This document shows positions 21,949 through 45,790 of a stretch of DNA of 64,000 nucleotides, piece by piece (positions within the stretch are counted from its first letter, which is position 1; each line of letters starts with the position of its first letter). A model generated the notes under the pieces. The model did not search any database. It saw nothing but the letters and a program-made list of their open reading frames with translations, and was not told the DNA's origin. Source of the stretch: Halorubrum hochsteinianum (GTDB taxonomy: Archaea; Halobacteriota; Halobacteria; Halobacteriales; Haloferacaceae); the NCBI RefSeq assembly GCF_023702125.1, contig NZ_CP098415.1, positions 2,294,001 to 2,358,000 of the forward strand, given 5' to 3'. A program made the position numbers and the translations under genes.

Positions 21949-22176
21949 ATGGCCGACTTCGACGTTCACGACCACCGCCACGAACTGAAACAGCTCCGCG
22001 ACGCGGGCGCGACGAGCCTCTGGGAGAACCGCGAGGAGATGGCCTGTCCGGTGTGCGACGACGTCTTCTCGCGGCTGTTTGTCACCGAGCAGACCGGAAC
22101 AACGTTCCCCGAGAACGACGGCGCGCGGTTCTGCCTGCTGCGCGACGACGACGCCGTGTTCCTGTTCAGACACTAA
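21949..22176 (+). CDS. Small haloarchaeal zinc-ribbon-like protein
   Basis: A 75-residue protein: FDVHDHRHELKQLRDAGATS, then ACPVCDDVFSRLFVTEQ, then ENDGARFCLLRDDDAVFLFRH. The CPVC pair plus a later Cys could hold zinc. It resembles short proteins annotated in haloarchaea as 'flagella cluster' proteins (DUF7385-like), from memory only. The ATG before ADFDVHD is chosen over an in-frame codon 24 triplets upstream because the conserved part begins here. No flagellar genes are near. Confidence 0.7.
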   Translation: MADFDVHDHRHELKQLRDAGATSLWENREEMACPVCDDVFSRLFVTEQTGTTFPENDGARFCLLRDDDAVFLFRH

Positions 22177-22296
22177 GCGCACGGGCGATCGGTTACACGG
22201 GGCGTCGGCTCCGTCGAAATCCCCTCTTCAGACGTATTCTCGCCTGAAACGACTGGTCGATGAGAGCTGCTAATGAATCGAATTACTATCGTTTGT

Positions 22297-22494
22297 TCAC
22301 AAACGACGAGCGATCTCGTACGCGATTGATGTCGGGAGAAGGATAGCGAATATTACAAGCGTGATTTCCTCTATTGTCAGGCCAGATTGCGTAAGACCTG
22401 CGTAGAAGTAGAGTGCTCCGGTGGACATCACACTGACAATAGCCGCAATATATCGGGGATCCCTCCATGAAGACGGAAACTCAGAGCTAGACAT
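22297..22494 (-). CDS. Small two-helix membrane protein in an AT-rich patch
   Basis: A 65-residue protein with hydrophobic helices at about 15-35 and 42-62 (YIAAIVSVMSTGALYFYAGL and EITLVIFAILLPTSIAYEIA). Its codon and base use is much more AT-rich than the neighbours on both sides. A TATA-like stretch lies about 26 bases upstream, and an inverted repeat CGTTTG/CAAACG (22290-22305) overlaps its stop codon and could end the transcript. No family is recognised; it could be recently acquired. Confidence 0.6.
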   Translation of the reverse strand: MSSSEFPSSWRDPRYIAAIVSVMSTGALYFYAGLTQSGLTIEEITLVIFAILLPTSIAYEIARRL

Positions 22495-22594
22495 AACTCC
22501 GTATACTCGTATCTATGCGATAGATTCTTCGCCTGTATTGAGCGCAATCGGGCCAGAATATCTCACTTGCCGCGGATCTCAACGGATCCGGGCG

Positions 22595-24250
22595 TCAGTC
22601 GTCGCCCACGGGGTCGACACCGGGATCCGGGTCGTCGATGTACCGCTCGGTCCACGTGCCCCGCGCGAACCACGCGACTCCGACGACCGCGCCGAGGACG
22701 TTCCCGAGCGCCATGCCGACCCAGACGCCCGTCTCGCCCCACCCGGCCACGAAGACGAGGTACGCCACGCTGGCGACCCGGCCCACCCAGAGGGTGAGGA
22801 TCGAGATGACCATCGCGGTCTTCGTGTTGCCCGCGCCGCGGAACGCGCCGAGGATTACCTGCGAGACGCCAATAAACGCGAACTCGACCGAGCGGATCCG
22901 GACGTACTCGACCGCGTACTCGATCGTCGCCGGCGCGTCCGGCACGTCGCCGAGGAACGCCCCCACGATCGGTTCGGTGAACGCCACGGCGACGACCGCG
23001 ACGAGGAACATCACGCCCGCGCCGGTCGTGGCGGCGAACTTCACCGCCTTGCCCGCGCGGTCGGCGCGGTTCGCGCCGAGGTTCTGTCCGACCATCGTGT
23101 CGATGGCGCGCCCCAGTCCCATCGCGGGCAGGAACACGAGCGAGATGAGGCGGTTCCCCAGCCCGTAGGCGGCGACGACAGGCGGCGAGAAGGTGACGAT
23201 CATCGCCGTGAGCGTGATCATCGCGAGCGCGCTCGTCGTCTGCTCGACGCTGGAGGGAAGGCCGAGTCGGAAGATGTCCCGGATGAAGTCGAGGTCCGGA
23301 ACGAGGTGGCCGAACGTCACGTCGGGGCCGTAGTCGGTCCCGAACAGGACCCAGAGCCCGATGGCGGTCGCGACGCCGCGAGAGAGGATCGTCGCGAGCG
23401 CAGCGCCCTGAATGCCGATCCCGGTGACCCCCGTCGCCGAGAGCAACATCGCCTCCACCGCGACCGGATCGAGCGCGGCGAGACCCGGCACCGCCGCGAG
23501 CCACTCGAACAGCGGATTCCCGTCGAACCCGAAGATGAAGAACGGGTCGGGGAGGACGTTCAGGAGGACGGAGATGAACATCACGGCCATCGGCGTCCGG
23601 GTGTCGCCGTAGCCGCGCATCAGCGCCGAGAAGACGAAGAAGCCGAACATCAGGGGGATGCCGGCGAAGATGACCTCCATGTAGTCGGCCGCGAGCGGGA
23701 TCACCGTCGCCGCGGTGTCCGCGTCGCTCGGGAGGATCTCCAGGGCGGGACGGGTGTAGAAGTAGCCCGCGATACCGATGAACACGGACAGAACCGAGAC
23801 GGTGAAGATCGTCTGTCCCGCGACCAGTCCGGCCGAGCCGTCGCCGTCGGCACCGGTGTACTGCGCGACGAGGATCGCGCCCGCGGTGGTGAACCCGCCG
23901 GCGACCGCGATCAACAGGAAGATGAGGGGGAACGCGAGGCTGATCGCGCCGACCGCTTCCGCCGAGAGCCGGCCGAGGTAGAGCGTGTCGACGATGTTGT
24001 ACGTCACCTGTAACAGCTGGATGACGACGATCGGCCACGCCAGTCGGAACAGCGGTCTGAGGAGGCTTCCTTCGGTGATCGACTCCCCGTCGACCGGCCC
24101 GTCCGGTCCGCCGGGGGAACCGTCGCCGGGCCCGTCGGGCTGGTCGGGGTCGTCCGGCCCGTCGGCGTGGGCGTGTTCGTCCGGGGCGGTGGAGGGGTCG
24201 TCCGGCCCGTCGGAGGGGCCGTCCGGATCGACCGGAGGCTCGTCGCTCAC
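22595..24250 (-). CDS. MATE family multidrug/cation antiporter
   Basis: A 551-residue protein with twelve membrane helices in two six-helix halves. Typical MATE features are LFRLAWPIVVIQLLQVTYNI at the first helix, the repeat of this pattern in the second half (LGLPSSVEQTTSALAMITLT), and VGQNLGANRADRAGKAV. The first ~60 residues are an unusual disordered Asp/Gly/Pro-rich tail with several DGP repeats, probably cytoplasmic. MATE proteins export drugs or metabolites using Na+ or H+. The gene is not linked to an obvious regulator. Confidence 0.92.
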   Translation of the reverse strand: MSDEPPVDPDGPSDGPDDPSTAPDEHAHADGPDDPDQPDGPGDGSPGGPDGPVDGESITEGSLLRPLFRLAWPIVVIQLLQVTYNIVDTLYLGRLSAEAVGAISLAFPLIFLLIAVAGGFTTAGAILVAQYTGADGDGSAGLVAGQTIFTVSVLSVFIGIAGYFYTRPALEILPSDADTAATVIPLAADYMEVIFAGIPLMFGFFVFSALMRGYGDTRTPMAVMFISVLLNVLPDPFFIFGFDGNPLFEWLAAVPGLAALDPVAVEAMLLSATGVTGIGIQGAALATILSRGVATAIGLWVLFGTDYGPDVTFGHLVPDLDFIRDIFRLGLPSSVEQTTSALAMITLTAMIVTFSPPVVAAYGLGNRLISLVFLPAMGLGRAIDTMVGQNLGANRADRAGKAVKFAATTGAGVMFLVAVVAVAFTEPIVGAFLGDVPDAPATIEYAVEYVRIRSVEFAFIGVSQVILGAFRGAGNTKTAMVISILTLWVGRVASVAYLVFVAGWGETGVWVGMALGNVLGAVVGVAWFARGTWTERYIDDPDPGVDPVGDD

Positions 24251-31615: not shown

Positions 31616-32479
31616 CTATCGGCGCACGCTCCCGCGGAGGCGCTCGATCGCGACGCCGACGCGGGGACCGAACGCGACGGCCGCGACCGCCGCGACGATC
31701 CCGAGGACGCTCCAGCCGACGAGCGAGGCCACCGCCCGACCGGTGTCGACGAATCCCCCCTCCGGCGCGAAGGCGACGCCGATGACGTGCTCGAAGACCA
31801 GTCCCCTGAACGCCCCGTTGGGAGAGAGCGCTATCGACTCGGCGATGCCGCCCGGCGACGCCCCGGCCGCCAGCGACCGAAGGACTGCGAGGTCGCCGCC
31901 GAGGACGCCGCCGAGCAGCGCGAGGAGGCCGAGCGCGAACGCGCTCCGCCGGCTCGTCGCGATCGTCGACACCGCCGCCGACAGCGAGAGGTACGCCGCG
32001 CCGAACGGGACGACGAGCGCGATAAAGCGGACGAAGATCACGGGCGAGTCGACGCCCGAGTGCGTCGCGAAGATCCCGGTGTCCGGGGCGGCCGTGAGCC
32101 ACACGTACGCCCCGACGAGCGCGAACGGCCCGCCGACGAGCGCGACGAGCGCGACCACCCGCGCCAGCAGCACCCCGAGGACGTATCCGACCGCGCTCAC
32201 GGGGTAGGTCCGGATCACGTCGAGTTCGCCGCTCTCGACGTCGGCGAACAGCGCGCGGTACCCGAGCACGACCGCGAGCAGCGGGACCAGCACCTCGGTC
32301 GGCAACAGCAGGTCGACGACGGCGGGCACGAACCCGGTCGCGCCGCCGCCGCCCACCGCGACGAGTCCGCCGAGGACCGCGAGCAGCCCGACCGCGAGGA
32401 CGGCGTACCCGGGCGTCCGTCGCACGGTGGACAGCTCCCGACGGAAGACGACCCAGACACCGGCGAACGGGGAACTCAT
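31616..32479 (-). CDS. nosY: ABC transporter permease, NosY-like
   Basis: A 287-residue permease with six helices: FRRELSTVRRTPGYAVLAVG at the first, then VFVLL-type pairs and a final pair at about 238-280. It matches the ABC-2/NosY layout. Its ATG overlaps the stop of the ATP-binding gene (ATGA), so the two are translated together. In denitrifiers NosDFY exports or presents sulfur/copper for N2O reductase assembly; here N2O reductase is absent, so the final client is unknown. The symbol marks family likeness. Confidence 0.85.
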   Translation of the reverse strand: MSSPFAGVWVVFRRELSTVRRTPGYAVLAVGLLAVLGGLVAVGGGGATGFVPAVVDLLLPTEVLVPLLAVVLGYRALFADVESGELDVIRTYPVSAVGYVLGVLLARVVALVALVGGPFALVGAYVWLTAAPDTGIFATHSGVDSPVIFVRFIALVVPFGAAYLSLSAAVSTIATSRRSAFALGLLALLGGVLGGDLAVLRSLAAGASPGGIAESIALSPNGAFRGLVFEHVIGVAFAPEGGFVDTGRAVASLVGWSVLGIVAAVAAVAFGPRVGVAIERLRGSVRR

Positions 32480-33279
32480 CGGTCCGACACCCCCGGGACG
32501 TGAACAGAGCCGTCGTCCGGGTCGCCCGCCTCGCCGCCCGACCGCCCGCCCTCCCCCTCGGCGGCTGCCGGCGCACGGTCGTCGGATCGCCCCGCGACCG
32601 CGCGGTACAGCCCGGCGACGTCGTCGACCCCGTGTTCGTCGAGGAGGCGGTCGCGGGCCCCCACCGCGGCGACCCGGCCGCGCCGGAGGACGACGACGGC
32701 GTCCGCGTGGGCGTCGACGAGGTCGAGGTCGTGCGAACTGACGACGACGGCCGCGTCGTCGCCCGCGCGGGCCGCCGCCCGGAAGGCCCGCTCGCGCATC
32801 TCGGGGTCGAGCCCGCTGGTCGGCTCGTCGAGGACGACGACAGCCGGGTCGCCGAGCGTCGCCTGCGCGATTCCGAGCAGCCGTCGCATTCCGCCGGAAA
32901 GTTCCTCTACGCGCTTTTCGGCCGCGTCGCCGAGGCCGACGTCCGCCAGCGCCCCGCCCGGGTCGCCGCCGACGAGCGCCGCGTAGAACCCGAGCGTCTC
33001 TCGGGCGGTGAACCCGTCCCGGAACGGAACCCGCTGCGGGAGGTAGCCGACGCACCTCTCGGACCGGGAGCGCGGCCCCCCCTCCGCGTACCGGACCGCT
33101 CCCGCGGTGGGCTCGACCGCGCCCGCGAGGAGGCCGAGCAGCGTCGACTTGCCGGAGCCGTTGGGGCCGACGACGGCGGTGACGCCCGCTCCGACGGACA
33201 GCGAGACGCCGTCGAGGACGGGGACGCCGCCGTATGCGCGCGTGACCCCGTCGAGCGTCGCGAGCGTGCGGTCGCTCAC
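32476..33279 (-). CDS. nosF: ABC transporter ATP-binding protein, NosF-like
   Basis: A 267-residue ABC ATPase starting at GTG. It shows Walker A VVGPNGSGKSTLLGLLAG, the Q-loop YLPQRVPF, signature VEELSGGMRRLLGIAQA, and Walker B VVVLDEPTSGLDP followed by SSHDLDLV. The last ~35 residues are a disordered Gly/Asp/Glu tail. Its start overlaps the end of the NosD-like gene by four bases (GTGA), and its end overlaps the permease start, so the three form one tightly coupled operon. Confidence 0.92.
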   Translation of the reverse strand: MSDRTLATLDGVTRAYGGVPVLDGVSLSVGAGVTAVVGPNGSGKSTLLGLLAGAVEPTAGAVRYAEGGPRSRSERCVGYLPQRVPFRDGFTARETLGFYAALVGGDPGGALADVGLGDAAEKRVEELSGGMRRLLGIAQATLGDPAVVVLDEPTSGLDPEMRERAFRAAARAGDDAAVVVSSHDLDLVDAHADAVVVLRRGRVAAVGARDRLLDEHGVDDVAGLYRAVAGRSDDRAPAAAEGEGGRSGGEAGDPDDGSVHVPGVSDR

Positions 33280-35309
33280 GCGGATCCCCCCGCCGTCGCC
33301 ACGGCGTCCCACTCGGACCCGTTCGCGGACCGCCAGTCCGCCCGAATCGCCCTCCGAGCGCCGGCGTTCCCCCGCGCGGCCGCATCGGTCCGCTCGGGGT
33401 GGTGCGGTTCCGCCGCGGGCGACGGGTCGACGATGCTGCCGGAGCGGGCCCCGGGGACGGTTCCGCGGAGGGCGTCGAGCAGTCGCGCCGCCGGCGACTC
33501 GCGGACCGCGGCCGCGCTCGCGTGTCGGTGGAGCGCGCCGTCGACCGGGGACGTGGGGCGGTACGCCCGCTCGCCGTCGGCGTACGGGCCGGCGTTCGCG
33601 CCCTCCCAGTAGTTCCCGCGGTCGCCGTCGGCCCACACGCGGAGCGCGCCGGCACCCGCCGTCGCGTGGTCGTCGTTGCCGACGAAGTCGTTCGCGACGA
33701 CGCGGCTCGAGGGAACGACGGTCGTCGCGCGCGCGCCGAGTTCGTTGTCGACGACGACGTTGTGCTCGTACAGCGACCCGCGGGCACTCGTGGAGAAGCC
33801 GAGTTCGTTCCCGACCAGCGTGTTGTAACCGACGTACGTCCGCGTCCCCGACGCCTGGATCCCCGCGCTCGAGTTGCGGACTTCGTTGCCGACGATCGCG
33901 TTGCCCGCCGGCCGCGTCATCACCGTGACCCCGGCGAACAGCTCGTCCCGGAAGTCGTTGTCCGCGACGAGCGCGTCGCCGGTGTACATGAGGTGCGTCC
34001 CGTATCGGTTGTCCGCGAACGTCGAGTTCCGCACGACCGAGCCGTCCGCGCGGTGGAGGTAGATACCGTCGCGGCCGCCCTGGAACCGGCTGTCAGTGAC
34101 GGTCACGCGCGACTCCATCCCGGTGATCCCCATGAACCCCTCCTGCCACTCGTCGGTCCCGTCGACGACGAGCCCGCTCGCGGTCGCGTGCGATCCCTCC
34201 CGCAGCAGGAGCCCGCTCGCGTTCGTGTCGACGGCGACGTCGTCGACGACGAGCCCGGGCGCGCCGACCGCCTTGATCCCGGCGTCGCCGTGACCGTAGC
34301 CGAGCTGGATGTTCGTGTCCCACGCCTCGCCCTCGGGGCCGCGGGACTCGCGGGCCGCTTCCGGGTCGCGAGTCTGGTTCCCGGTGCCCGCGACCCGCAG
34401 CCCCATGAGAGCGGCGTCGGATGCGCGGACGGTGATCACCGATCCGGTCCCGTTCCCGACGACGCGGGTCACACCGTCGTCGTTCTGTCCCCCGCCGGAT
34501 CCCGCGCCCGCGACCGTCACGGACCGGTTCACGGTCACGGTCTCCTCGTAGGTCCCGGGCGGAACACGGACCGTGGTGTCCGGCGGCGCGGCCGCGACCG
34601 CGGCGTCGACGGTCGGGGCGTCCTCGCCGACGACGACGGACACCGGGCGGTCCGCGCGCCGCTCGGCCGCCGCGAGCCGCTCGTCCGCCGTCCGCCACCG
34701 CTCCGGCGCGAGCGAGCGGACGGTCGCCGCGGAGTCGACGTCGAACGACCGGGTCCGGACCACCTCCCAGCCGACGACCGAGCCGCCGTGGTCGGCGGCG
34801 AACGCCGCCGCGGCCTCGCGCTCCCGGAACGGAACGACGACGTCGCCCGACGGGGATCTGGCGTCGCTCCCGACGACGTACCGAGCCGCCGAGACCGGGA
34901 CCCACCCGCCCGCCCCGCTGGCCGAGAACAGTCCGGACTGAGTCGTGCCCGGGCTCCTGTGGTCGAACGTCTCTACGTACGCGACCAGCGGGTAGCCGAA
35001 CTGCCGCTCAGTCCGCCCGTCCAGCCGGCTCTCGACGAACGGGCCGATCCCGTTGTAGCCGACGACGTACTGGAGTTGCGAATAGAACACCTGGACCCGG
35101 GGAAGGGTCGCGTCGCCGGCCATCAGCGCGTCCGTCTCCGAGGAGAGCCCGAGTTCGACGGTGTCGTCGAACCGCACCGGCTCGGGGACCGACTCGCTCG
35201 GATCGGCGGCGAACGCGCCGGCGGTCACGACCGCGGCGACTGCGATCAGGCCGGCGGCCGCGAGGCGGACGCGACGCGACCGGGCGGAGTCGGGGTCAAA
35301 AACTGCCAC
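33276..35309 (-). CDS. nosD: NosD-like beta-helix protein with an N-terminal NosL-like domain
   Basis: A 677-residue exported protein starting at GTG with a signal helix (about 15-35). Residues ~45-190 look like a NosL-type domain (RYVVGSDARSPSGDVVVPF, then AAAFAADHGGSVVGWEVV) but without the CxxCGM copper motif. Residues ~220-600 are a right-handed beta-helix of CASH/NosD repeats (SRFQGGRDGIYLHRADGS, ADNRYGTHLMYTGDALVADN, GNAIVGNEVRNSSAGIQASG). The last ~80 residues are low-complexity. NosD works with NosF/NosY outside the membrane in metal-site maturation. A TATA-like GAATAAGT lies about 26 bases upstream, so it leads the operon. Confidence 0.88.
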   Translation of the reverse strand: MAVFDPDSARSRRVRLAAAGLIAVAAVVTAGAFAADPSESVPEPVRFDDTVELGLSSETDALMAGDATLPRVQVFYSQLQYVVGYNGIGPFVESRLDGRTERQFGYPLVAYVETFDHRSPGTTQSGLFSASGAGGWVPVSAARYVVGSDARSPSGDVVVPFREREAAAAFAADHGGSVVGWEVVRTRSFDVDSAATVRSLAPERWRTADERLAAAERRADRPVSVVVGEDAPTVDAAVAAAPPDTTVRVPPGTYEETVTVNRSVTVAGAGSGGGQNDDGVTRVVGNGTGSVITVRASDAALMGLRVAGTGNQTRDPEAARESRGPEGEAWDTNIQLGYGHGDAGIKAVGAPGLVVDDVAVDTNASGLLLREGSHATASGLVVDGTDEWQEGFMGITGMESRVTVTDSRFQGGRDGIYLHRADGSVVRNSTFADNRYGTHLMYTGDALVADNDFRDELFAGVTVMTRPAGNAIVGNEVRNSSAGIQASGTRTYVGYNTLVGNELGFSTSARGSLYEHNVVVDNELGARATTVVPSSRVVANDFVGNDDHATAGAGALRVWADGDRGNYWEGANAGPYADGERAYRPTSPVDGALHRHASAAAVRESPAARLLDALRGTVPGARSGSIVDPSPAAEPHHPERTDAAARGNAGARRAIRADWRSANGSEWDAVATAGGSA

Positions 35310-35330
35310 GCGAACAGTTCGATCGACGGC

Positions 35331-35392
35331 GACTTATTCTGTCTGGTTCGTTCCTCGAACGGGCAGCTGAACGCGTCCAGAGGGGCTAAAAG
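35331..35392. promoter_or_regulatory. Divergent nosD / nosL promoter region
   Basis: Two facing TATA-like boxes occupy the 104-base gap: GACAGAATAAG (minus sense, about 35331-35343) serving nosD from GTG 35309, and GCTAAAAGG (35384-35392) serving nosL from ATG 35414. Both spacings are near 25 bases. Between them GTTCG TTCCT CGAAC (35346-35360) is a short inverted repeat that could bind a shared regulator; this last point is a guess. Confidence 0.5.
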
Positions 35393-35413
35393 GGCGTTGT
35401 TCCAATTTCGAGT

Positions 35414-36007
35414 ATGACGAAAGACGACCCGTCGAGTCCCGTGCCCGTCCGCCCCGAGACCGTCCCCCGACGACGCCTGCTCGCCGGGGTCGCGGCCGCC
35501 GGTGCGGTCGCCGTCGCCGGCTGCGCCGGGGACGGGTCGAACTCGGCCGATCCGGTCTCCATCGACGACGACCGGGCCTGCGACCAGTGCGGGATGGTCA
35601 TCGCCGACCATCCCGGAACGGTCGGACAAGTCCACTTCGAGGACGACGAGCCGGAAGGGGGCCGCCCGGCGCAGTTCTGTAGCGCCACCTGTGCGTACAC
35701 GTACCGCTTCGACGCCGAAGACGAGGGGCGGACCGCGCTCGCGACGTTCCTCACCGACTACTCGGCGGTCGATCAAGCGGTGTTTGAGGAGGGTGGCGAC
35801 ACGATGTTCTCCTCACACGTCGAGAGCGAGGCGTTCGGTCGCGAAACGGCCCTCACCGTCGTCGCACGCAGCGAGGTGATCGGTGCGATGGGACCCGACC
35901 TGATACCGTTCAGCGACGAGGGGGACGTCGACGAGTTCGTCGCGGAGTACGGCGGCGAGGCGATGCCCGCGAGCGACGTGGACCGCGCGACGCTGGAGGC
36001 GCTGTAA
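35414..36007 (+). CDS. nosL: NosL copper-chaperone lipoprotein
   Basis: A 197-residue protein with a Tat/lipobox signal (PRRRLLAGV...AVAGC, Cys37). The NosL hallmark RACDQCGMVIAD (Cys56, Cys59, Met61) binds Cu(I), and a second pair AQFCSATCAYT (Cys89, Cys93) follows. The remainder is the two-layer alpha/beta fold ending in MPASDVDRATLEAL. NosL hands copper to N2O reductase in denitrifiers. Here it is divergently transcribed from the NosD/F/Y operon, and no copper reductase is in the window, so the target may be another copper protein such as a cupredoxin or oxidase. Confidence 0.94.
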   Translation: MTKDDPSSPVPVRPETVPRRRLLAGVAAAGAVAVAGCAGDGSNSADPVSIDDDRACDQCGMVIADHPGTVGQVHFEDDEPEGGRPAQFCSATCAYTYRFDAEDEGRTALATFLTDYSAVDQAVFEEGGDTMFSSHVESEAFGRETALTVVARSEVIGAMGPDLIPFSDEGDVDEFVAEYGGEAMPASDVDRATLEAL

Positions 36008-36029
36008 GGGCGGAGCCCCACCGAGAGGC

Positions 36030-37130
36030 TCAGATCTTCGGGAGCTCCCGTGCGCCGGATATCCCGCCGGCGATCGCCGAGAACCCTAACGTCGCGACCA
36101 ACTGCGTGATTCCGGTGATGCCGGCGCTGGAGAGCGCCCCGGCCACCAGCACGGTGAGCGCGATCACCGCTAGCATGACCACCGCTTCGCGTACGAGGAT
36201 GCTCCGGACGCGCGCTCTGCGCCGCTCGCGTCCGGTCTTCAACGCCGGTACCACGTCCTTGATCCTGGTCTGAACGAGGTAGTTCGTGAGCCCGGCCAGG
36301 AAACCCGCGAACAGGGACCACCCGACGGGCAGGAGGTCAAACTGGCCGCCGGCCGGCTCGGCGATCGGCTCCGTCTCCTCTGCCCCGGCGGCCTCGTCGG
36401 CGGTGTCGTCCGTTCCGCCCGTTCCGCCGCCGTCTGTTCCGCTATCGGTCTCCGAGGGCTCGTCGCTGCCGTCGGCGTCCCCCGTCTCGCCGCCGGCGTC
36501 ACCGCCGCCATCGCCTTCGGTCTGGTCTCCCCCGTCACCGCCGTTACCTCCGTCGTCACCGCCGCTGCCCGCTCCGGCGCTCCCGCCGGAGCCATCTCCG
36601 CCGGTACCGCCACCTCCATCCCCGGTACCGCCACCTCCACCCCCGGTACCGCCACCGCCGGAGTCGCCCCCTTCGTCGGGGGTGTCGACCTGAAGTTCTA
36701 TCGTTCCGGAGAAGCTGCGCTGGTCGGTCGAAACGGTCGCGCCGAACGTCACCGACTCTCCCGGCTTGAGAGTGACCTCCCCGCTGCCGAAGGACTCTCC
36801 GGTGTCCATCCGTTCGACCGTGATCCGATCGTCGGTGCTCTCCAGTTGGACCGTCGTGGTGCTGTCGCCGTCCTCGTACCCGCCGAACCCGACGACGAAC
36901 AGGTCGTCGACGCGCGTCTGACTCCCGGGTGGCAGCGCGTCGAACTCGAGCCGTACCTCGTCGTTCCCGTCGAACCGGACGTATTCCTCGCCGTTCTCGC
37001 TGTCGGCGGCGTCGAGGTACACCTCGGAGCCGGGCGCGACCTCATCGCCGCCGGTGAACGCCGCCGCGGTGGCGGTCGCGCCGCTGAGGAGGACGACGAG
37101 GGCGAGGACGACGACGGTGGCACGGTTCAT
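36030..37130 (-). CDS. Membrane-anchored beta-sandwich protein of the fibre-like locus
   Basis: A 366-residue exported protein: signal peptide (1-24), one or two beta-sandwich domains (about 27-150), a Gly/Asp/Ser-rich linker (about 152-262) and three C-terminal helices (about 268-290, 315-340 and 342-362). The sandwich segment VRLEFDALPPGSQTRVDDLF resembles the VVFGNNGGLPPNATLGYDDL segment of the protein at 37991, suggesting a shared domain. The long linker and helices look like a stalk and anchor, possibly a base for extracellular subunits. No known family name is certain. Confidence 0.75.
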   Translation of the reverse strand: MNRATVVVLALVVLLSGATATAAAFTGGDEVAPGSEVYLDAADSENGEEYVRFDGNDEVRLEFDALPPGSQTRVDDLFVVGFGGYEDGDSTTTVQLESTDDRITVERMDTGESFGSGEVTLKPGESVTFGATVSTDQRSFSGTIELQVDTPDEGGDSGGGGTGGGGGGTGDGGGGTGGDGSGGSAGAGSGGDDGGNGGDGGDQTEGDGGGDAGGETGDADGSDEPSETDSGTDGGGTGGTDDTADEAAGAEETEPIAEPAGGQFDLLPVGWSLFAGFLAGLTNYLVQTRIKDVVPALKTGRERRRARVRSILVREAVVMLAVIALTVLVAGALSSAGITGITQLVATLGFSAIAGGISGARELPKI

Positions 37131-37223
37131 TCGTTCGGGTCGGACTAGCGGGGGATCTCCCCTGCCTGGGGTCGCGGATCGGCGGCCACGAGTCGGTTCG
37201 CCGAAGCGGTCGAGTCAGGATGA

Positions 37224-37814
37224 CTAATTGTCGACGGCCTCCGCGACGAAAGTCACCTTCTCGATGCCCTCAAGCGCAGTTTTGTCCCCACCGTTTCTGA
37301 GGTCGACGACGACGTCGACGTTGACGCTGTCTCCCCGATCGTCCCCGTCTGCCCCCGCGTTCAGCGTGATACTGTTGTCAGTACCGACGATGGACGACCC
37401 GTCGTGTTCCCGGAAATCGAGGATGTCGTCCTCGCTCTCGTCGCCATCGTCGCTGTCCCACTCGCCACCGAGCAAGTCGCCGTCTTCGACGTAGAGGTCG
37501 ACGTCGGGCGCGGAACTCCCCGTCCCGTTGTTCGTGACCGTGAGTGCCTTCAGGAACGACGTTTTCGCCTGCTCGTTGAGGTCGTCCTGCGCGAACTTGA
37601 CGACGCTCGCCGAACTCCCTTCGCTGGTCGTTTCAATGATCTGTCCCGCTCCGTTTTCGTTCTTCTCGAATCCGATCCGGGCGTCCGCGTCGTTCTTCAC
37701 GCCGAGTTCGACGCTCCGATCGGCTTCGACCGTGGTGAACGCCCCCGACCCGAACGCGGCCCCGACCCCGACGCTCGACAGACCGACACCCGCCAATAAC
37801 GCTCGTCGTCGCAT
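37224..37814 (-). CDS. DUF1102/TasA-like secreted subunit (candidate fibre protein 1)
   Basis: A 196-residue protein with an RR-type signal (MRRRALLAGVGLSSVGVGAA) followed by FGSGAFTTVEADRSVELGVK and a beta-rich body with AVTNNGT-type strands (LKALTVTNNGTGSSAPDVDL) and repeated acidic loops. The 'GSGAFT / EADRxV / NDADARIG' opening is the DUF1102 haloarchaeal pattern and is shared by the gene at 37991 and partly by the LamG protein. Bacterial TasA and camelysin and archaeal bundling pilins of Pyrobaculum have comparable beta-sandwich subunits processed by SipW-type peptidases. The ATG follows a TATA box by about 30 bases. Confidence 0.8.
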   Translation of the reverse strand: MRRRALLAGVGLSSVGVGAAFGSGAFTTVEADRSVELGVKNDADARIGFEKNENGAGQIIETTSEGSSASVVKFAQDDLNEQAKTSFLKALTVTNNGTGSSAPDVDLYVEDGDLLGGEWDSDDGDESEDDILDFREHDGSSIVGTDNSITLNAGADGDDRGDSVNVDVVVDLRNGGDKTALEGIEKVTFVAEAVDN

Positions 37815-37837
37815 TACGTTCGCGTACGCGGTGTACG

Positions 37838-37849
37838 GGTATATTATTG
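37838..37849 (-). promoter_or_regulatory. TATA box of the first fibre-like subunit gene
   Basis: AATAATATA in the minus sense (37840-37848) is about 30 bases upstream of the ATG at 37814. It sits in the 176-base divergent region shared with the subunit gene at 37991, whose own box is probably GATTAGTAA near 37953-37961. Confidence 0.6.
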
Positions 37850-37990
37850 AACCAATTTAGCCCCGGTGACCGACCGGTTCGGTCGCTTCTGGGTGTGCTT
37901 GAATCCCGTCCCGAACGGCTATATGATCCATTTAGGAGGCTAACTCGCCGGATTAGTAAGTGGATGCCGTGTGTACGGTGGAGTACAGCA

Positions 37991-38677
37991 ATGAAGCTCA
38001 ATCGCAGGAGCGTGTTAGGTGCGATCGGTCTGGCCGGCGTCGGAACGGGAGCCGCGTTCGGGTCGGGGGCGTTCAGTTCGACGACCGCGGAACGCGCGGT
38101 CGAAGTCAACGTCTTCGGCGCGGGTGACGGACCCGACGGCGTTGTACAGGACCCGAGCGATGACACCGAAGAGGAAATCGCAGACACGATCACTAGCAAC
38201 TCGGTTGACGTGCTCGTGGACACGTCGGACGACGACGTGACGGTTCGTGACTCCGGGGGAACTGACTATGATTACGATCCGGAAAGCGATAATCCTGGTA
38301 CCGCGTCGCTGTTCCCTTCAAATACCGGCACCTACGATGTCGGTAACGAATACGTGAGTCTCGTTGCCAACGACGTGACTGTCGTCTTCGGAAACAACGG
38401 TGGACTGCCGCCGAACGCGACACTCGGCTACGATGACCTCTTTACGTTCGTGCCGAACGCCGGCGACTCTTCCTCTAATTTTGATGTGACGTTCGGAAGT
38501 TCCGACAGTCCCGGTGATGTGCTCACGAAGGTCGATGGAAAGGATGTTACCACACGGGCTGTCGTGTCAGTAGCCAGTGGTTCGTCAAGTTCAACAAACT
38601 CCGTTGACGCCGAAGTCGAGACGACGACCACGAGCCCCGAGAGCGAGCGCCTCGATATCCAGATCGAGGAGCAGTAG
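37991..38677 (+). CDS. DUF1102/TasA-like secreted subunit (candidate fibre protein 2)
   Basis: A 228-residue protein starting at an ATG directly before an RR-type signal (KLNRRSVLGAIGLAGVGTGA). After FGSGAFSSTTAERAVEVNV comes a long beta-sandwich with strongly acidic loops and the segment NEYVSLVANDVTVVFGNNGG. It is a paralogue of the 37224 gene and is transcribed away from it. A likely TATA (GATTAGTAA) lies about 35 bases before the start. The base composition is lower in GC than the housekeeping genes on either side. Export and surface location are inferred from the signal; polymer formation is a hypothesis. Confidence 0.78.
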   Translation: MKLNRRSVLGAIGLAGVGTGAAFGSGAFSSTTAERAVEVNVFGAGDGPDGVVQDPSDDTEEEIADTITSNSVDVLVDTSDDDVTVRDSGGTDYDYDPESDNPGTASLFPSNTGTYDVGNEYVSLVANDVTVVFGNNGGLPPNATLGYDDLFTFVPNAGDSSSNFDVTFGSSDSPGDVLTKVDGKDVTTRAVVSVASGSSSSTNSVDAEVETTTTSPESERLDIQIEEQ

Positions 38678-38879
38678 CCCGAACACGGCCCCTAAACACC
38701 GAGCTATCACCGCAACTCCGGTGAAAAGTGACGTTTCGGACGATATTACCCCGGGCCCGTCGCTACCGCCCCGGCGACCGTTGAGAGAGTCAAATGGGTT
38801 CATTAATATGTCACTAGACGTACGTTCAAGTAACTGAGGCGGACCCGTTCGGTCCGGGTTCGGACGACTCGCTAACATC

Positions 38880-39443
38880 ATGACGGCTGCTACGACGCAA
38901 GTGACCGAAGACGACCGTTCACTCTCTCGCGACGAGATTCACGACCTGCTGAGCAATCCGCGACGGCGGTACGCCCTTCATATACTGAAGCGGGACGACG
39001 AGACCGCAGATCTCTCGACGCTCGCCGAAGAGGTCGCGGCGTGGGAAAACGAGAAGCCGGTCTCGGAGGTCACCTCGAACGAGCGGCACCTCGTCTACAC
39101 CTCCATACAGCAGAACCACCTCCCGCGGCTGGAGCGCGCCGGCGTCATCACCGAGGAGAGGGGGCGAGTCGAACTGACGAGCGAGGCGGAGGAACTCGAC
39201 GTGTACATGGACGTGGTCCCCGGCGATTCGATCCCGTGGGCCGAGTACTACCTCGGTCTGTCCGCGTTCTCGCTGGCACTCCTCGCGGCCGTCCGGGTCG
39301 GCGTGTTTCCGGCGTCGGTGCCCGACCTCGCGTGGGGCGTCGTGATCGCGGTGCTGTTCACCTGTTCGGCCGCGTATCACACGTACCAGAACCGAGAGAT
39401 GCAACTCGGCCGCGGTGAGGAACCGCCGGACCGAAGAGTCTGA
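38880..39443 (+). CDS. Membrane-linked winged-helix regulator (DUF7344-like)
   Basis: A 187-residue protein. The N-terminal winged helix has LSRDEIHDLLSNPRRRYALH and EVTSNERHLVYTSIQQNHLP, then RAGVITEERGRVELT, typical of the haloarchaeal 'LxNxRRR' family. Two hydrophobic helices at about 120-142 and 146-165 tie it to the membrane. Such regulators may sense envelope state. It sits in the middle of the fibre-like locus, between a subunit gene and the LamG gene, so control of this locus is the simplest reading. Confidence 0.85.
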   Translation: MTAATTQVTEDDRSLSRDEIHDLLSNPRRRYALHILKRDDETADLSTLAEEVAAWENEKPVSEVTSNERHLVYTSIQQNHLPRLERAGVITEERGRVELTSEAEELDVYMDVVPGDSIPWAEYYLGLSAFSLALLAAVRVGVFPASVPDLAWGVVIAVLFTCSAAYHTYQNREMQLGRGEEPPDRRV

Positions 39444-39685
39444 CCGGCCGGAGTCCGACGGTCGGACCGTACTCGTGAAACGTGGCTTTGTGTGATCGTT
39501 CTGGTATTTTCGACCTAAAACACGTCTGTCACTCAGATATTATATTTTATGTCGACACCACGGAGTGGGCGTGAGAACGCGTCCAGTCGTGCCGACCGTC
39601 GCTCAACGCGCTCCGCCGAACGACGAGCTGGCCGGCTCGACGACGGTCGCTGAGAGGCGTAGACCGCCACCCGTGAGGTGCGGCG

Positions 39686-40834
39686 CTACTGGGAGGGCTC
39701 CGGGACGAGCGTGCCCGCGCTTCCGTCCTGACTCGTCTCGTACAACCGCTTCACCTGATCGCCCGAAAGCGCAATGGAGTGAATCTGCGGGTTGTCCAGC
39801 GCACCCCTGAACTGGTAGTCCCCGTCCGGCCCGTTACCGATCAGCAGGGGGCTCTGGGTGTCTTGCGGATCCGGCAGCGACGACGTCGGCTCGTACACCA
39901 TTTCACCGTTGATGTACACGCGGTCGTTCGATCCGTGACACCAGGCGACGTGATTCCACCCATCGTCGAGCGTACTGTCAGTGTTTACCAGCGAATCGGG
40001 GCCGACTTCGATGAAGACGGTGTTCTGCTCGGATCCGTCGAAACCGCTCCCGATGAAGAGCTGATAGCTTTTCTCGCTTTGGTCGCTACCCCACTTACTG
40101 AACAGTCGCCCCAGACCGAAGTCACCGCCCCCAGCGTCACCGGTACCGTCTCTGTTGCCCGGAAGAACCCAGACGGAAAGCGTGAACTCACCGTCCAAAT
40201 TCAGCGAGTCGTCGCTTCCGACTTCGATTTTTTTCTCTCTTTCGTGCTTTTTCCACTTTTCGTAGAGATAATCAAACACTCGATCTCGTGACCGAGAGTC
40301 TGCGAAAGACACCGGGCTTCCATCGTTCTTCGGTCGATTACAGTCGTCCCAGTCATCTATCGTAACTTTATGCGTACTCTGGCGGGGGTTCCAGTAGGAG
40401 ACACGCGGGTCAACTACGGTAACGTCACGGTCGGCCTCGAAGCGGTGTGTTTCGCCGTCGGCAAAGATCGTGAAGGCGACTTCCTCCTTCTCTCCCGGGC
40501 AATCCAGGGTCGCCGTGATCCACGCGGACTCTTCCGGTTCGATGTCGTCGGGGGCAGAGATGTCTCTCAGCGGCGCACTCGGCGCGTCGATCGACACGTC
40601 GATCGGCTCGTCGGACCGGTTCGTTATCTCTCGTAGTTGTACTCTTTCACCCGCGTATCCGACGACGGTCTCCGGTCCGGAGACGCCCAGTAGCGCCTCC
40701 GAGTCGTTCGACGTACTGAGATCGGCGTCCCGATCGCTGCGGATCGCCACGGAACCGTTGGAGTTCCACGCGGACAGCCCGGCACCGCCCGCGATGAGAG
40801 CGATCGCACTCCGTCGAGTCCACTTACGACCCAT
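39686..40834 (-). CDS. Secreted LamG-domain protein with TasA-like N-terminus
   Basis: A 382-residue exported protein. An RR-type signal (KWTRRSAIALIAGG) is followed by a beta-sandwich (about 30-135) whose opening SDRDADLSTSNDSEALLGVS recalls the DUF1102 pattern. A LamG/concanavalin-like domain then fills about 185-365: LDGEFTLSVWVLPGN, DDGWNHVAWCHGSNDRVYIN and YQFRGALDNPQIHSIALS. LamG domains bind glycans or proteins. A linker joins the two. It may be a decorated tip or adhesive subunit of the same surface structure. The start at 40834 puts the signal at the N-terminus. Confidence 0.82.
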   Translation of the reverse strand: MGRKWTRRSAIALIAGGAGLSAWNSNGSVAIRSDRDADLSTSNDSEALLGVSGPETVVGYAGERVQLREITNRSDEPIDVSIDAPSAPLRDISAPDDIEPEESAWITATLDCPGEKEEVAFTIFADGETHRFEADRDVTVVDPRVSYWNPRQSTHKVTIDDWDDCNRPKNDGSPVSFADSRSRDRVFDYLYEKWKKHEREKKIEVGSDDSLNLDGEFTLSVWVLPGNRDGTGDAGGGDFGLGRLFSKWGSDQSEKSYQLFIGSGFDGSEQNTVFIEVGPDSLVNTDSTLDDGWNHVAWCHGSNDRVYINGEMVYEPTSSLPDPQDTQSPLLIGNGPDGDYQFRGALDNPQIHSIALSGDQVKRLYETSQDGSAGTLVPEPSQ

Positions 40835-41192
40835 ACGACCCCCCAGTTGGTGACGTTCCGAGCAGACGGATGGCGCGACCGACCGGAGCCGAACCGCGAG
40901 CGAGAGGACGCACGCCGCGTCGACGGCGTTGCGACTCGAACGCGCCGGATCCGAGTATCGGCTGCGTATCACGCGGCTGACGAGCCTCCGCGTCGCGGGA
41001 CCTCATCACTCCTAGATGTTAGTTAGCCGGAATAATAAGCTATTGCTCCTGAGTTAGGGCCGCGGTCCGCGGCGGGCGGTTCGGTCTGTGCGACGTCCTG
41101 AAACCGACAGACTGCGTCCGATATGAGGCACGGAGGAGTCAGGACCGGAGACGCTCGACCGTCGCCCGGATAGCGTCGAGCGAACCCGTTCG
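40835..41192. other. 358-base gene-free gap between LamG and signal peptidase genes
   Basis: The strongest signal is an AT-rich GCTTATTATT (minus sense, about 41028-41040), which would place a transcript start near 41005 and leave a 170-base leader before the LamG gene. A 61-codon open frame (40824-41009) starts here and overlaps the LamG start, but its Arg-rich product looks non-genuine. The plus-strand segment TTAGCCGGAATAATAAG (near 41023-41040) resembles CTCGCCGGATTAGTAAG near 37949-37965 in front of the second subunit gene; this may be chance. Confidence 0.4.
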
Positions 41193-42350
41193 TTACCGGA
41201 TAAGTCGCTTGATCCATCGAGCGAGCGAGACGTCGCGGCGACGTTCCCGAACTCGCCTGTTGCCGAATCCGAAGATCGCACCGACGATCGTGGCGATAGT
41301 TCCGAGTCCCAAGAGATTGAACGCCGCGACAGAAGCGAGCGGATGGATCGAGTGGAGTCGGGCGATCAGCGACGGCGGGGCCACGAGGAAGTACCGGTGC
41401 TCAGACATCGTAACCACCGTTTGTTCTCCGGAAGGCGGGGCGGTCACCGTCATCGTCGCCGTCGCCGATTCGTCGCGAGGAACGGCCAACTCGTTCGGCG
41501 AGATATCCGCCTCCGGATGGCTCGTCTCGAGGATGACGAGCATCGCGATGAGGCCGTCGTTCTCGGCCATCAGGTTGGCCTCCGCCATCTCACCCGACTC
41601 GGTCTCCACGGACGTCGCGTCCTCGTCGATCGTCACCTGCTGTGTTCCGGTCGACGCGATCATCGCGGCGTTGGCGGGCAGGAGTATCAACAGCGCGAGC
41701 GCCAGCACGATCCGACGCCCGCCGACTTCCCCGTCCGCTCGCGAACGGTCACGTGTGCGGTTCCGCCGGCGGCTACTCCGCAGGTCGTCGACGAACACGA
41801 CCAGCAGTAACGCCAGCCCGAGCGAGACGAACAGACCGCTGATCCCCCGCGATCCCACCGTGGCGTCGAACCCGAGCGACTCTGCGGCGGTGGTTTCCGC
41901 GTTTTCGGCCGCGTTCCGAACGGCCTCGATCCCGCTCCCGAGTCCCGGGATCCGAACCACCTGTCCGTTCAGTTGCAGCGCGGTCGCGACGATCCGGTCC
42001 TCCGTCACCACCGGCTCGTCACCCTCCTGGTCCCGGAACGGGTTGTTGTCTCCCCTCGTGACGTAGCCTCCGGCGGTCTCACCGACGACCCGGTGAGTCG
42101 TGAGCCCGCCGCCCTGAAGCTCAATTGCCTCGAAGACGACGACGTCGCCCTCGTCGACGGGTCCCGACACCGCCGCCGGCACGGCGACGAACCCGTCGCC
42201 GGCCTCTAGGGTCGGCTCCATGCTGCCGGAGGTGACGTACCCAAGAAAGACCGGTTGCCCGGCGAGCTGACCGGCCACGATGCTGACAACGACGAGCACG
42301 GAGACGACGGCGAACGCGTCCCTTGCCGTCTCCCGTGACATGTGTTCCAC
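41193..42350 (-). CDS. SipW-type signal peptidase I with C-terminal beta domain
   Basis: A 385-residue archaeal/ER-type signal peptidase (S26B). A first helix (about 13-33) is followed by the catalytic SGSMEPTL with Ser43, LTTHRVVGE with His86 in place of the bacterial Lys, and TRGDNNPF with Asp101. Two further helices flank a luminal beta domain (about 235-330: QQVTIDEDATSVETESGE, ATATMTVTAPPSGEQTVV), and the chain ends with a last helix and a basic tail. Bacterial SipW matures TasA; this linkage suggests the same job for the nearby subunits. A TATA-like GATTTAAAG lies about 25 bases before the start. Confidence 0.88.
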   Translation of the reverse strand: MEHMSRETARDAFAVVSVLVVVSIVAGQLAGQPVFLGYVTSGSMEPTLEAGDGFVAVPAAVSGPVDEGDVVVFEAIELQGGGLTTHRVVGETAGGYVTRGDNNPFRDQEGDEPVVTEDRIVATALQLNGQVVRIPGLGSGIEAVRNAAENAETTAAESLGFDATVGSRGISGLFVSLGLALLLVVFVDDLRSSRRRNRTRDRSRADGEVGGRRIVLALALLILLPANAAMIASTGTQQVTIDEDATSVETESGEMAEANLMAENDGLIAMLVILETSHPEADISPNELAVPRDESATATMTVTAPPSGEQTVVTMSEHRYFLVAPPSLIARLHSIHPLASVAAFNLLGLGTIATIVGAIFGFGNRRVRERRRDVSLARWIKRLIR

Positions 42351-42559
42351 ACTTCGGCATCGAGCTTTAAATCACCGAAGATCGCGACCCGTCGCCGCCC
42401 GATCGCAGCCTCCGCGTTCGTCGTGAACGCGGTCGGAGCAACAGGCCGCAGGTGCGTAACGCGGCCGCGAGGATGGAGCGACGGGAACCGTCGCTCGGTT
42501 GCGGGGCCTCTTTGTCGACTCCGTCTCCGACGCCGGCCGAGCCGCGAGTGCCGCGCCGG

Positions 42560-45500
42560 CTACTCCGCAGCGCCCCAGTCCGCGACGCGCTTCGGCCGGT
42601 CGGAGACCGCCATCACGTCGAGGTCGTCGCCCGCGTGGTCGAGCGCCTCCAGCGCCGCCTTGGCGGAGGCGTGCGTCGAGAAGTAGGTGATCTCCTCTTC
42701 GACCGCCACTTCGAGCAGGTCGCGCTGGCGCGAGACGATCAGGTCGAGGTCGCCGCGCTTTGCCGCCTCGATCAGGTCCGTCGCCTCGCTGAGTTCGAAG
42801 TGCTCAGCGTAGCCGCTGACGAGTGCCTCTCCCGCCTCGGTGCCCGGGTCGGGGAACTCCTCGGCGGAGAGGTCGACGACGGCGGTGCCGGACTCCGGGA
42901 TCGGCTTGCCCGTCGAGTCCTGCGCCTTGTCGTACGCCTTGCCGAAGGAGGTGGCCGTGCCCATCACCTCGCCCGTCGACTTCATCTCCGGGCCGAGCCG
43001 CGGGTCCGATCCCGGCAGGCGGTCGAACGGGAGGACGACCTCCTTCACGGAGCGGTGCTCCGGGATCTGCTCGTCGACGTCGAGGTCGGCGAGCGTGAGG
43101 TCGTCGGTCATCACCTTCGCCGCCAGCTTCGCGATGGGGACGCCCGTCGCCTTCGAGACGAACGGGACCGTCCGCGAGGAGCGCGGGTTCGCCTCCAACA
43201 CGTACACCTCGCTGTCGGCCTCGGGGTCGTCGACGCCCGTCACCGCGAGCTGGACGTTGAGCAGGCCGACCGTGTCGAGCGCGCGGGCGATGTCCTCCGT
43301 CACCTCGCGCACCCGGCCGAGCGTCTCGTCGCCGAGCGAGCGCGGCGGGATCATACAGGCGGAGTCGCCCGAGTGGACGCCCGCGCTCTCGACGTGTTCC
43401 ATCACGCCGCCGAGCAGGACGTCCTCGCCGTCCGCGACGGCGTCGACGTCCAGTTCGACCGCGTCGTCGAGGAACTGGTCGACGAGGATCGGCTTGTCCG
43501 GCGAGACCCGGACCGCCTCCTCGATGTACTCCTCAAGCTCCGCGTCGTCCTCGACGACCCGCATCGCGCGCCCGCCGAGGACGTACGAGGGGCGCACCAA
43601 GACGGGATAGCCGATGTCGTGGGCGAGTTCGAGCGCCTCCGCCTCGCTCGTGGCGGTGCCGCCGTCGGGCTGGGCGACGCCGAGCTCGTCCATCAGGACG
43701 TTGAACCGGTCGCGGTCCTCCGCGAGGTCCATCGCCTCGACGCTGGTTCCCAGAATCTCGCAGTCCAGTCCGCGGCGCTCGATCTCTGCCTGAAGCGGTT
43801 CGCCCACGTTGACCGAGGTCTGCCCGCCGAACTGGACCATCACGCCGTCCGCGCCGGTCGTCTCGATCACGTCGGCGACCTCCTCGGCCGAGATGGGCTC
43901 GAAGAAGAGTCCGTCGGAGGTGTCGTAGTCGGTCGAGACCGTCTCGGGGTTGTTGTTGATCACGTGCGCGTCGATGCCGAGTTCGCGGAGCGCGCGCACC
44001 GCGTGGACCGCGCAGTAGTCGAACTCGACGCCCTGCCCGATCCGGATCGGGCCGCCGCCGACGACCACGACGCTCTCGACGTCCGGGTCGACGCGGACCT
44101 CGTTCGCCGCGCCGGCGGTGTCGGCCCCCCGAAGGAACTCCGGTAGGCGCGCGGAGTAGTAGTACGGGGTGGAGGCCTCGAACTCGCCCGCGCAGGTGTC
44201 GACCTGCTTGTACGTGCGGTCGGGCACCGCGCTCTCGACCTCTCCCACGTCGGCGTCGACGCCGCCGGCGGTCGCGGTCGCCGCGATCTCGGCGTCGGTG
44301 CGGCCCACCATCGCCGCCTCGGTGAAGTCGCCCTCGGCCGCCGCGGCGGTGCCGTCGGCGATCCTCTCGAAGCGCTCGACGTACCAGCGGTGGATGCCGG
44401 TGAGGCCGATCACGTCGTCGACCTCGTAGCCGCGGTCGAACGCCTCGAACATCGCGTACGGGCGGTCCGGGCTGGGGCGTTCGAGGTACTCCGACTCCAG
44501 TTCCGCGTCGGACACGTCCTCGAAGTCGACGGCGGGGTCGTACTCGGAGGAGCGCAGCGCCTTCACCATGCTCTCCTCGAACGTCCGGCCGATCGACATC
44601 GCCTCGCCGGTGGACTTCATCGCCGTGCCCAACTCGAAGTCCACGTCGTCGAACTTGTCGATGGGCCACCGCGGCACCTTCGTCACCACGTAGTCGATGG
44701 CCGGCTCGAAGGCGGCGGTCGTCTCGCCGGTGATCTCGTTGTCGATCTCGTGGAGCCGCTTGCCCAGCGCGACCTTCGCGGTGACCCGGGCGATCGGGTA
44801 GCCGGTCGCCTTCGACGCGAGCGCGGAGGAACGGGAGACGCGGGGGTTCACCTCGACAACGCGGTACTCGCCGCCGGGCGTCCCGTCGTCGTGCCACGCG
44901 AACTGGATGTTACAGCCGCCCTGAATGCCCAGGTCGCGGATGACTTCGAGCGCCGCGTCGCGCATCTCCTGATGCCCGTCGTCGGGTATCACCTGCGAGG
45001 GCGTGACGACCGTCGACTCGCCGGTGTGGATCCCCATCGGGTCGATGTTCTCCATGTTACAGATGATGATACAGGAGTCGTCGGCGTCCCGCATCACCTC
45101 GTACTCCAGTTCGACCCAGCCCGCGATGGACTCCGTGATCAGCACCTCGCTGTTCCGCGAGAGGCGGAGCCCCTTGCGGACGCGCTCGACCAGTTCCTCG
45201 AACTCGTCGACGACGCCCGACCCGGAGCCGCCGAGGGTGTACGTCGTCCGCGCGATGACGGGGAGCCCGCCCACGTCGTCGACGGCCGACTGGACGCGCT
45301 CGCGGAACGCCGCCTCGTCGAAGTCGGTGACCGACTCGTCCTCGTCTAAGGAGATGGTGGTCGACTTCGGCACCGGCTGGCCGAGCCCCTCCATGCGCTG
45401 GCGGAACAGGTCGCGGTCCTCCGTCGCGTAGATGGTGTCCAGCGGCGTCCCCATCACGTCGACGTCGTACTCGTCTAAAATCCCCTCCTCCGCGAGCTCC

Positions 45501-45790
45501 GCGGTGACGTTGAGGCCGGTCTGTCCGCCGAGGCCGGCGATGACGCCGTCCGGCTCCTCGATCCGAACGACCTCCGCGATGGCCTCGGGCGTGATCGGCT
45601 CGATGTACACTCGGTCGGCCGTCTCCGGGTCGGTCATGATCGTCGCCGGATTCGAGTTCACCAGGACGACGCGAGCGCCCTCCTCCTGAAGGGCGCGACA
45701 CGCCTGCGCCCCGGAGTAGTCGAACTCGGCCGCCTGTCCGATCTGTATCGGTCCGCTGCCGATGAGTAGAATCGTCCGGTCCTCGCTCAT
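42560..45790 (-). CDS. carB: Carbamoyl-phosphate synthase large subunit
   Basis: A 1076-residue protein of standard length with two ATP-grasp halves. Both halves start with the nucleotide-binding pattern: GSGPIQIGQAAEFDYSG near residue 13 and GGGPIRIGQGVEFDYC near residue 575. Each half also has the ARTTYTLGGSGSG- or RPSYVLGGRAMR-type loop. The last ~140 residues form the allosteric MGS-like domain. It makes carbamoyl phosphate from bicarbonate, ATP and ammonia supplied by the small subunit, feeding pyrimidine and arginine synthesis. The small subunit gene carA is not adjacent. Confidence 0.97.
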   Translation of the reverse strand: MSEDRTILLIGSGPIQIGQAAEFDYSGAQACRALQEEGARVVLVNSNPATIMTDPETADRVYIEPITPEAIAEVVRIEEPDGVIAGLGGQTGLNVTAELAEEGILDEYDVDVMGTPLDTIYATEDRDLFRQRMEGLGQPVPKSTTISLDEDESVTDFDEAAFRERVQSAVDDVGGLPVIARTTYTLGGSGSGVVDEFEELVERVRKGLRLSRNSEVLITESIAGWVELEYEVMRDADDSCIIICNMENIDPMGIHTGESTVVTPSQVIPDDGHQEMRDAALEVIRDLGIQGGCNIQFAWHDDGTPGGEYRVVEVNPRVSRSSALASKATGYPIARVTAKVALGKRLHEIDNEITGETTAAFEPAIDYVVTKVPRWPIDKFDDVDFELGTAMKSTGEAMSIGRTFEESMVKALRSSEYDPAVDFEDVSDAELESEYLERPSPDRPYAMFEAFDRGYEVDDVIGLTGIHRWYVERFERIADGTAAAAEGDFTEAAMVGRTDAEIAATATAGGVDADVGEVESAVPDRTYKQVDTCAGEFEASTPYYYSARLPEFLRGADTAGAANEVRVDPDVESVVVVGGGPIRIGQGVEFDYCAVHAVRALRELGIDAHVINNNPETVSTDYDTSDGLFFEPISAEEVADVIETTGADGVMVQFGGQTSVNVGEPLQAEIERRGLDCEILGTSVEAMDLAEDRDRFNVLMDELGVAQPDGGTATSEAEALELAHDIGYPVLVRPSYVLGGRAMRVVEDDAELEEYIEEAVRVSPDKPILVDQFLDDAVELDVDAVADGEDVLLGGVMEHVESAGVHSGDSACMIPPRSLGDETLGRVREVTEDIARALDTVGLLNVQLAVTGVDDPEADSEVYVLEANPRSSRTVPFVSKATGVPIAKLAAKVMTDDLTLADLDVDEQIPEHRSVKEVVLPFDRLPGSDPRLGPEMKSTGEVMGTATSFGKAYDKAQDSTGKPIPESGTAVVDLSAEEFPDPGTEAGEALVSGYAEHFELSEATDLIEAAKRGDLDLIVSRQRDLLEVAVEEEITYFSTHASAKAALEALDHAGDDLDVMAVSDRPKRVADWGAAE

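Follow-up and report, generated by a model that had tools for sequence, protein, structure and literature searches.

What kind of surface structure, if any, is encoded by the six genes at 36030-42350 of the window, by which we mean the whole stretch of 64,000 nucleotides analyzed, part of the main contig of a Halorubrum genome of 3.06 Mb? The initial annotation read them as an accessory fibre or matrix locus of the TasA/SipW kind, equipped with a LamG-bearing adhesive component. An open reading frame check found all six genes where that annotation had placed them (Table 1), apart from its start of the LamG gene at 40972, which was not upheld; the start is most likely at 40834 (MGRKWTRR...), because the same start is common to the orthologues. 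The lower GC content that had been reported relative to the flanking genes was confirmed, with 0.59-0.65 across 37-42 kb versus about 0.70-0.75 in most flanking kilobases. Elsewhere in the window there is a second, isolated GC dip (22001-23000, 0.615).

Table 1. Features of the taf locus and its flanks, in window coordinates
Feature	Position	Strand	Description
nosL	35414-36007	+	island flank
taf island, approximate extent	36010..42530		between convergent nosL and carB; homology edges relative to empty-site genomes
tafF	36030..37130	-	signal segment, beta-sandwich ectodomain (about 25-150), disordered Gly/Ser/Asp stalk, C-terminal TM segments; putative membrane anchor/base
tafE	37224..37814	-	Tat-exported minor/adapter pilin (predicted); NCBIfam TafE, 9p0a_C match, RR 21/21
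tafE-tafA divergent intergenic region	37815..37990		both promoters presumed here from sequence
tafA	37991..38677	+	Tat-exported major pilin (predicted); NCBIfam TafA, 9p0a_C match
segment replaced relative to H. tebenquichense	38118..38922		mature tafA part, intergenic region, first regulator codons
regulator-like gene ("tafB" suggested by position)	38880..39443	+	DUF7344 winged helix and C-terminal TM segments; position conserved
tafC	39686..40834	-	Tat-exported pilin (predicted), common N-terminal module and LamG head; putative adhesive subunit
S26-type signal peptidase ("tafD" suggested by position)	41193..42350	-	extra C-terminal TM-ectodomain-TM part
carB	42560-45790	-	island flank

Identity of the locus

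Taken as a whole, the six genes are very probably a complete Halorubrum locus for Tat-fimbriae (tafi), encoding a predicted fibre. Tafi are described in PMC12687288 (citing Galeva et al. 2025, iScience 28:111793) as thin Tat-exported haloarchaeal appendages with TafA as their core. The fibre type is thus already known, having been described in 2025, and the Halorubrum locus is an ordinary further member of it and not the unrecognised system that the initial annotation implied. Three of the proteins exceeded the curated cut-offs of their NCBIfam models: TafA with 209.5 bits (cut-off 190), TafE with 231.7 bits (155) and TafC with 461 bits (410). The TafF model was matched over nearly its full profile with 299 bits (E 5e-89), which is under its curated cut-off of 420. 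TafF orthologues in other Halorubrum taf loci also stay under this value (157-317 bits), therefore the cut-off excludes the genus and not the 36030..37130 protein alone. Both TafE (E 1.9e-8) and TafA (E 1.3e-4) match in sequence the chain 9p0a_C of the PDB entry titled "Structure of Natrinema sp. J7-2 Tafi pilus", on which the papers searched had nothing. Searches of the six proteins against Pfam returned no more than DUF7344, LamG and an S26 match under the threshold. They nevertheless bear out two parts of the first reading, i.e. the membrane-linked winged-helix regulator (PF24035, DUF7344, E 2e-24, with predicted C-terminal TM segments) and the LamG domain, which forms the head of TafC (PF13385, E 5e-18); the membrane-anchored protein with a long stalk could likewise be recognized in TafF by a TM prediction and a Gly/Ser/Asp-rich stalk. 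The names TafB for the regulator and TafD for the peptidase would follow from the letters missing in the series and the fixed positions of the genes, with no model behind them.

The Halorubrum locus shares homologues of TafA, TafC, TafE and TafF with the known haloarchaeal tafi (Galeva et al. 2025; PDB 9p0a of Natrinema J7-2), twin-arginine signals are common to both, and the same gene set is present in Haloarcula and Haloferax loci. As far as the known tafi can be judged through PMC12687288, the locus stands apart in having tafC encoded on the other strand from tafA and the regulator, and its TafF scores below the curated cut-off. In this way a fibre locus which would otherwise likely be filed as DUF1102/TasA-like is settled, and tafi are extended to this Halorubrum.

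Proposed export, maturation and assembly of the pilins

The GSGAF...ADR/AER opening which had been noticed in two of the secreted proteins is real and not a chance likeness, since profile-profile comparison of TafA and TafE gave a probability of 99.5% (E 1.9e-22) over the first 44 columns. The resemblance of the LamG protein's N-terminus to the same module also held (TafE-TafC 95%, E 3.9e-8, first 50 columns). TafF is related to TafA only weakly in such a comparison (69%), and to TafE with 5% probability. In the alignments the twin arginines are invariant in TafA (22/22), TafE (all 21) and TafC (15/15), and in all 22 TafA sequences this is also true of G24, G26-A27 and R35; TafF has no twin arginines. 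Invariant twin arginines in all three pilins point to export by the Tat pathway, a feature of the locus, motifs included, that was missed at first.

The product of the peptidase gene scored 58.7 bits with the archaeal signal peptidase I model TIGR02228 (cut-off 51.85) and 36.4 bits with the Bacillus SipW model (cut-off 190). Of the earlier assignment to the SipW type there remains a Ser/His-type S26 peptidase of the archaeal/ER type, with Ser43, His86 and Asp101 kept in 26 relatives and an additional C-terminal TM-ectodomain-TM part, while the likeness to SipW itself is not supported. The same genome encodes other signal peptidases, and because one of them scores higher on the archaeal model, the peptidase of the locus looks dedicated to it. 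Of 52 Halorubrum genomes, eight have a full-length TafA, and exactly these eight also have a 62-98% identical peptidase; co-occurrence of this kind is strong evidence that the signal peptidase is dedicated to tafi. In TasA the Phe at P2' of the site TWA-AFND accompanies a dedicated ER-type peptidase (PMC10269814), and the conserved GSGAF of the Halorubrum pilins resembles this site.

Structures were predicted for TafA (pLDDT 81.4, pTM 0.78) and for the TafF ectodomain (pLDDT 80.9). Foldseek gave no match at E<=1e-3 for either model. In the VIA comparison the top places for TafA were mostly taken by FimA, AbpA and the Tafi pilus with Z of 5.0-5.4 (best 5.4); AbpA (7ueg) was aligned over 121 residues with Z 5.1 and rmsd 5.6, and TasA was absent among the matches listed, though TafA may still have a TasA-like fold. 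For the TafF ectodomain AbpA was the top match (Z 7.1, rmsd 3.3, 113 residues aligned, from AbpA residue 39 on); FimG and the Sulfolobus thread likewise ranked high, amid unrelated rows of similar Z. The fold prediction suggested at the outset did not refute the fibre reading, since several of the best matches, AbpA and the solved Tafi pilus among them, are donor-strand pilins, at modest Z. Such matches would suit donor-strand pilins and a TafF that serves as the acceptor base, and are no proof of either; because they are modest, the donor-strand mechanism would rest on analogy. AbpA bundling pili of Pyrobaculum calidifontis are built of beta-sandwich pilins too, but the likeness is one of fold only, with no sequence match found, and it is the Halorubrum pilins that carry twin-arginine signals. 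Similarly, the threads of S. acidocaldarius (Saci_0406, PDB 7pnb; Z 6.0 with the TafF ectodomain) are an archaeal donor-strand fibre of another family, to which no sequence relation was detected.

For this strain we infer fibre formation, together with the cleavage site, donor-strand assembly, LamG adhesion and the role of the regulator, along the following lines. Twin-arginine signal peptides would direct TafA, TafE and TafC to the Tat pathway for export, plausibly already folded as self-complemented beta-sandwiches. The S26 peptidase of the locus would then cleave them, most likely before the A-F of GSG|AF, mirroring TWA|AFND of TasA, and so free an N-terminal strand (about 28-42 in TafA). 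By analogy with AbpA, TasA and FimA, the freed strand may enter the groove of the adjacent subunit, and by such donor-strand exchange TafA would polymerise into the fibre. Judged by family names, topology and position, TafE would serve as an adapter, TafC, through its LamG head, as an adhesive subunit at the end or side of the fibre, TafF as the base anchored in the membrane and the DUF7344 protein as a regulator of the locus.

Two other explanations have to be weighed against Tat-fimbriae. The locus could encode a TasA/SipW-type matrix fibre of haloarchaea, in which Sec-exported DUF1102/camelysin-like proteins are matured by a SipW orthologue. In Bacillus, too, a single locus (TasA/TapA/SipW) encodes fibre subunits together with a signal peptidase of the ER type dedicated to them, the archaeal/ER type of the S26 peptidase and the A-F at the presumed cleavage site (TWA|AFND in TasA, PMC10269814) are in common, and AbpA, which is structurally related to TasA (PMC9674648), is among the fold matches. 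Such a fibre is nevertheless very improbable. The two secreted proteins that had been called DUF1102-like, encoded at 37224-37814 and 37991-38677 (TafE and TafA), gave no match to PF06510 at E<=1, with a model that works, since it matches proteins of two other loci of the same genome; none of the papers searched uses the name DUF1102. The Halorubrum locus further differs from the Bacillus one in its invariant twin arginines, which indicate Tat, and in its extra LamG and anchor subunits, and with TasA missing from the listed fold matches and the SipW model far under its cut-off the specific TasA/SipW link is not supported; a better fit is given by the dedicated Taf models and by the structure of the Tafi pilus. 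What stands of the initial proposal is an accessory extracellular fibre, akin in architecture to the Pyrobaculum bundling pili (AbpA), with the dedicated peptidase and the LamG part, putatively adhesive. Less probable still is that the genes encode no fibre and instead beta-sandwich proteins displayed on the surface, such as lectins or receptors associated with the S-layer, and a peptidase dedicated to them. LamG and Ig-like domains are known in non-fibrous surface proteins too and the fold scores are modest, but the sequence homology of TafE and TafA to a solved pilus, as well as the N-terminal module common to three co-encoded proteins, argue against this and for Tat-fimbriae.

Conservation, insertion site and apparent exchange of parts

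The gene order of the tafi locus is kept in 7 other Halorubrum genomes, five of which have tafE; the two congeners without it (G011 and G031) are the reason why TafE may be dispensable. The remaining Halorubrum genomes contain peptidase paralogues, mostly of 34-47% identity over most of the length, plus a few short partial matches. Two genomes carry what look like remnants. In G049 (L085:8306-8911) a truncated peptidase fragment (68%) with residues 4-160 is followed directly by residues 320-366 of TafF, an apparent scar of a taf deletion, and in G029 (L084:8020-9382) only the first 37 codons of tafA are left (89% identical), next to most of tafE and the start of tafF, as in a decaying or rearranged taf locus. 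Among 392 sampled genomes of the order, TafA was found at E<=1e-25 in 28, from 9 genera, and named carriers in other genera include Haloarcula and Haloferax species. Within the stretch read at the 24 loci of other genera, the peptidase and a TafE-like protein were each present at 23, with the regulator at 21 and TafF at 19. Judged by sequence, haloarchaea of different families have kept the gene set; the gene families co-occur far beyond the genome studied here, so the neighbourhood check proposed in the initial annotation did not refute its fibre reading.

In four genomes (G000, G046, G011 and G031) taf is situated between nosL and carB, and in the other four carriers it is found elsewhere. 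In many other genomes nosL and carB are only 9-150 bases apart and the site is empty; homology to these genomes runs up to the nosL stop codon and sets in again at the 3' end of carB. As sequence comparison with the empty sites indicates, the taf locus is an accessory island inserted at nosL-carB. Adjoining it, at 31616-36007, are genes that by reading, with no model applied, would fit an accessory set for nitrous oxide reductase (NosD/F/Y/L-like).

The nearest relative at the locus is that of H. tebenquichense (G046). DNA comparison by blastn gave 97% identity on both sides of, and no match within, the stretch 38118-38922. Protein identities are 95% for TafF, 97% for TafE, 95% for the regulator, 95% for TafC and 98% for the peptidase, versus 50% for TafA, in which residues 1-43 are 95% identical and those beyond 39%. 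Another pair of loci (L081/L083) combines a 94% identical peptidase with a 36% identical TafA. Judged by the sharp edges of the unmatched stretch, it would have arisen by recombination rather than by fast divergence. In TafC the N-terminal module alone is conserved in most congeners, the head being LamG here and unrelated elsewhere, and LamG heads of TafC recur in Haloarcula. The main fibre subunit and the adhesive part thus appear to be swapped between related species. Export and anchoring genes would stay conserved in such an accessory island, while the pilin body and the adhesin head would evolve through replacement. More broadly, we tentatively propose, with a confidence that falls somewhat short of even, that tafi loci are modular recombining adhesion islands, in which recombination, with the conserved N-terminal module and the flanking genes as its anchors, would pass the exposed body of the major pilin and the head of the adhesive subunit from species to species, much as at loci that diversify surface antigens or phage receptors. 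Viruses or adhesion partners could, for example, exert the pressure, and the whole island would be gained and lost at the nosL-carB site. H. tebenquichense and the genome studied here offer a testable case of such an exchange of pilin body and adhesin head between close species.

The head of TafC in G037 (L033:8953-10125) is bactofilin-like (PF04519, E 1e-17) and stands behind a Tat signal. Bactofilins, a family of polymer-forming beta-helix proteins, usually occur in the cytoplasm. At most loci tafC comes after the regulator and shares its strand, and it is inverted in the genome studied here and in H. tebenquichense. We considered tafC as an invertible (phase-variable) cassette and rejected this, as no long matched inverted-repeat pair was found around it; the longest inverted pair (37736-37786/38025-38075) is the common coding sequence of the tafE/tafA signal module.

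Two related loci lie elsewhere in the same genome. At C1:1775035-1776051 (L028:4982-6214) there are two further TafE-like proteins, one of them a genuine DUF1102 match, with a resolvase-like ORF close by; no signal peptidase of the window's kind was found near them. The other, at C1:611571-618635 (L027), is a second pilin-like locus with a paralogous signal peptidase (42-45% identical), a DUF7344 regulator, three TafE/TafA-like secreted proteins and a 514-aa DUF1102 and CARDB protein. Because such a paralogous peptidase is present in nearly all 52 congeners, this type of locus looks like a core fibre or surface locus.
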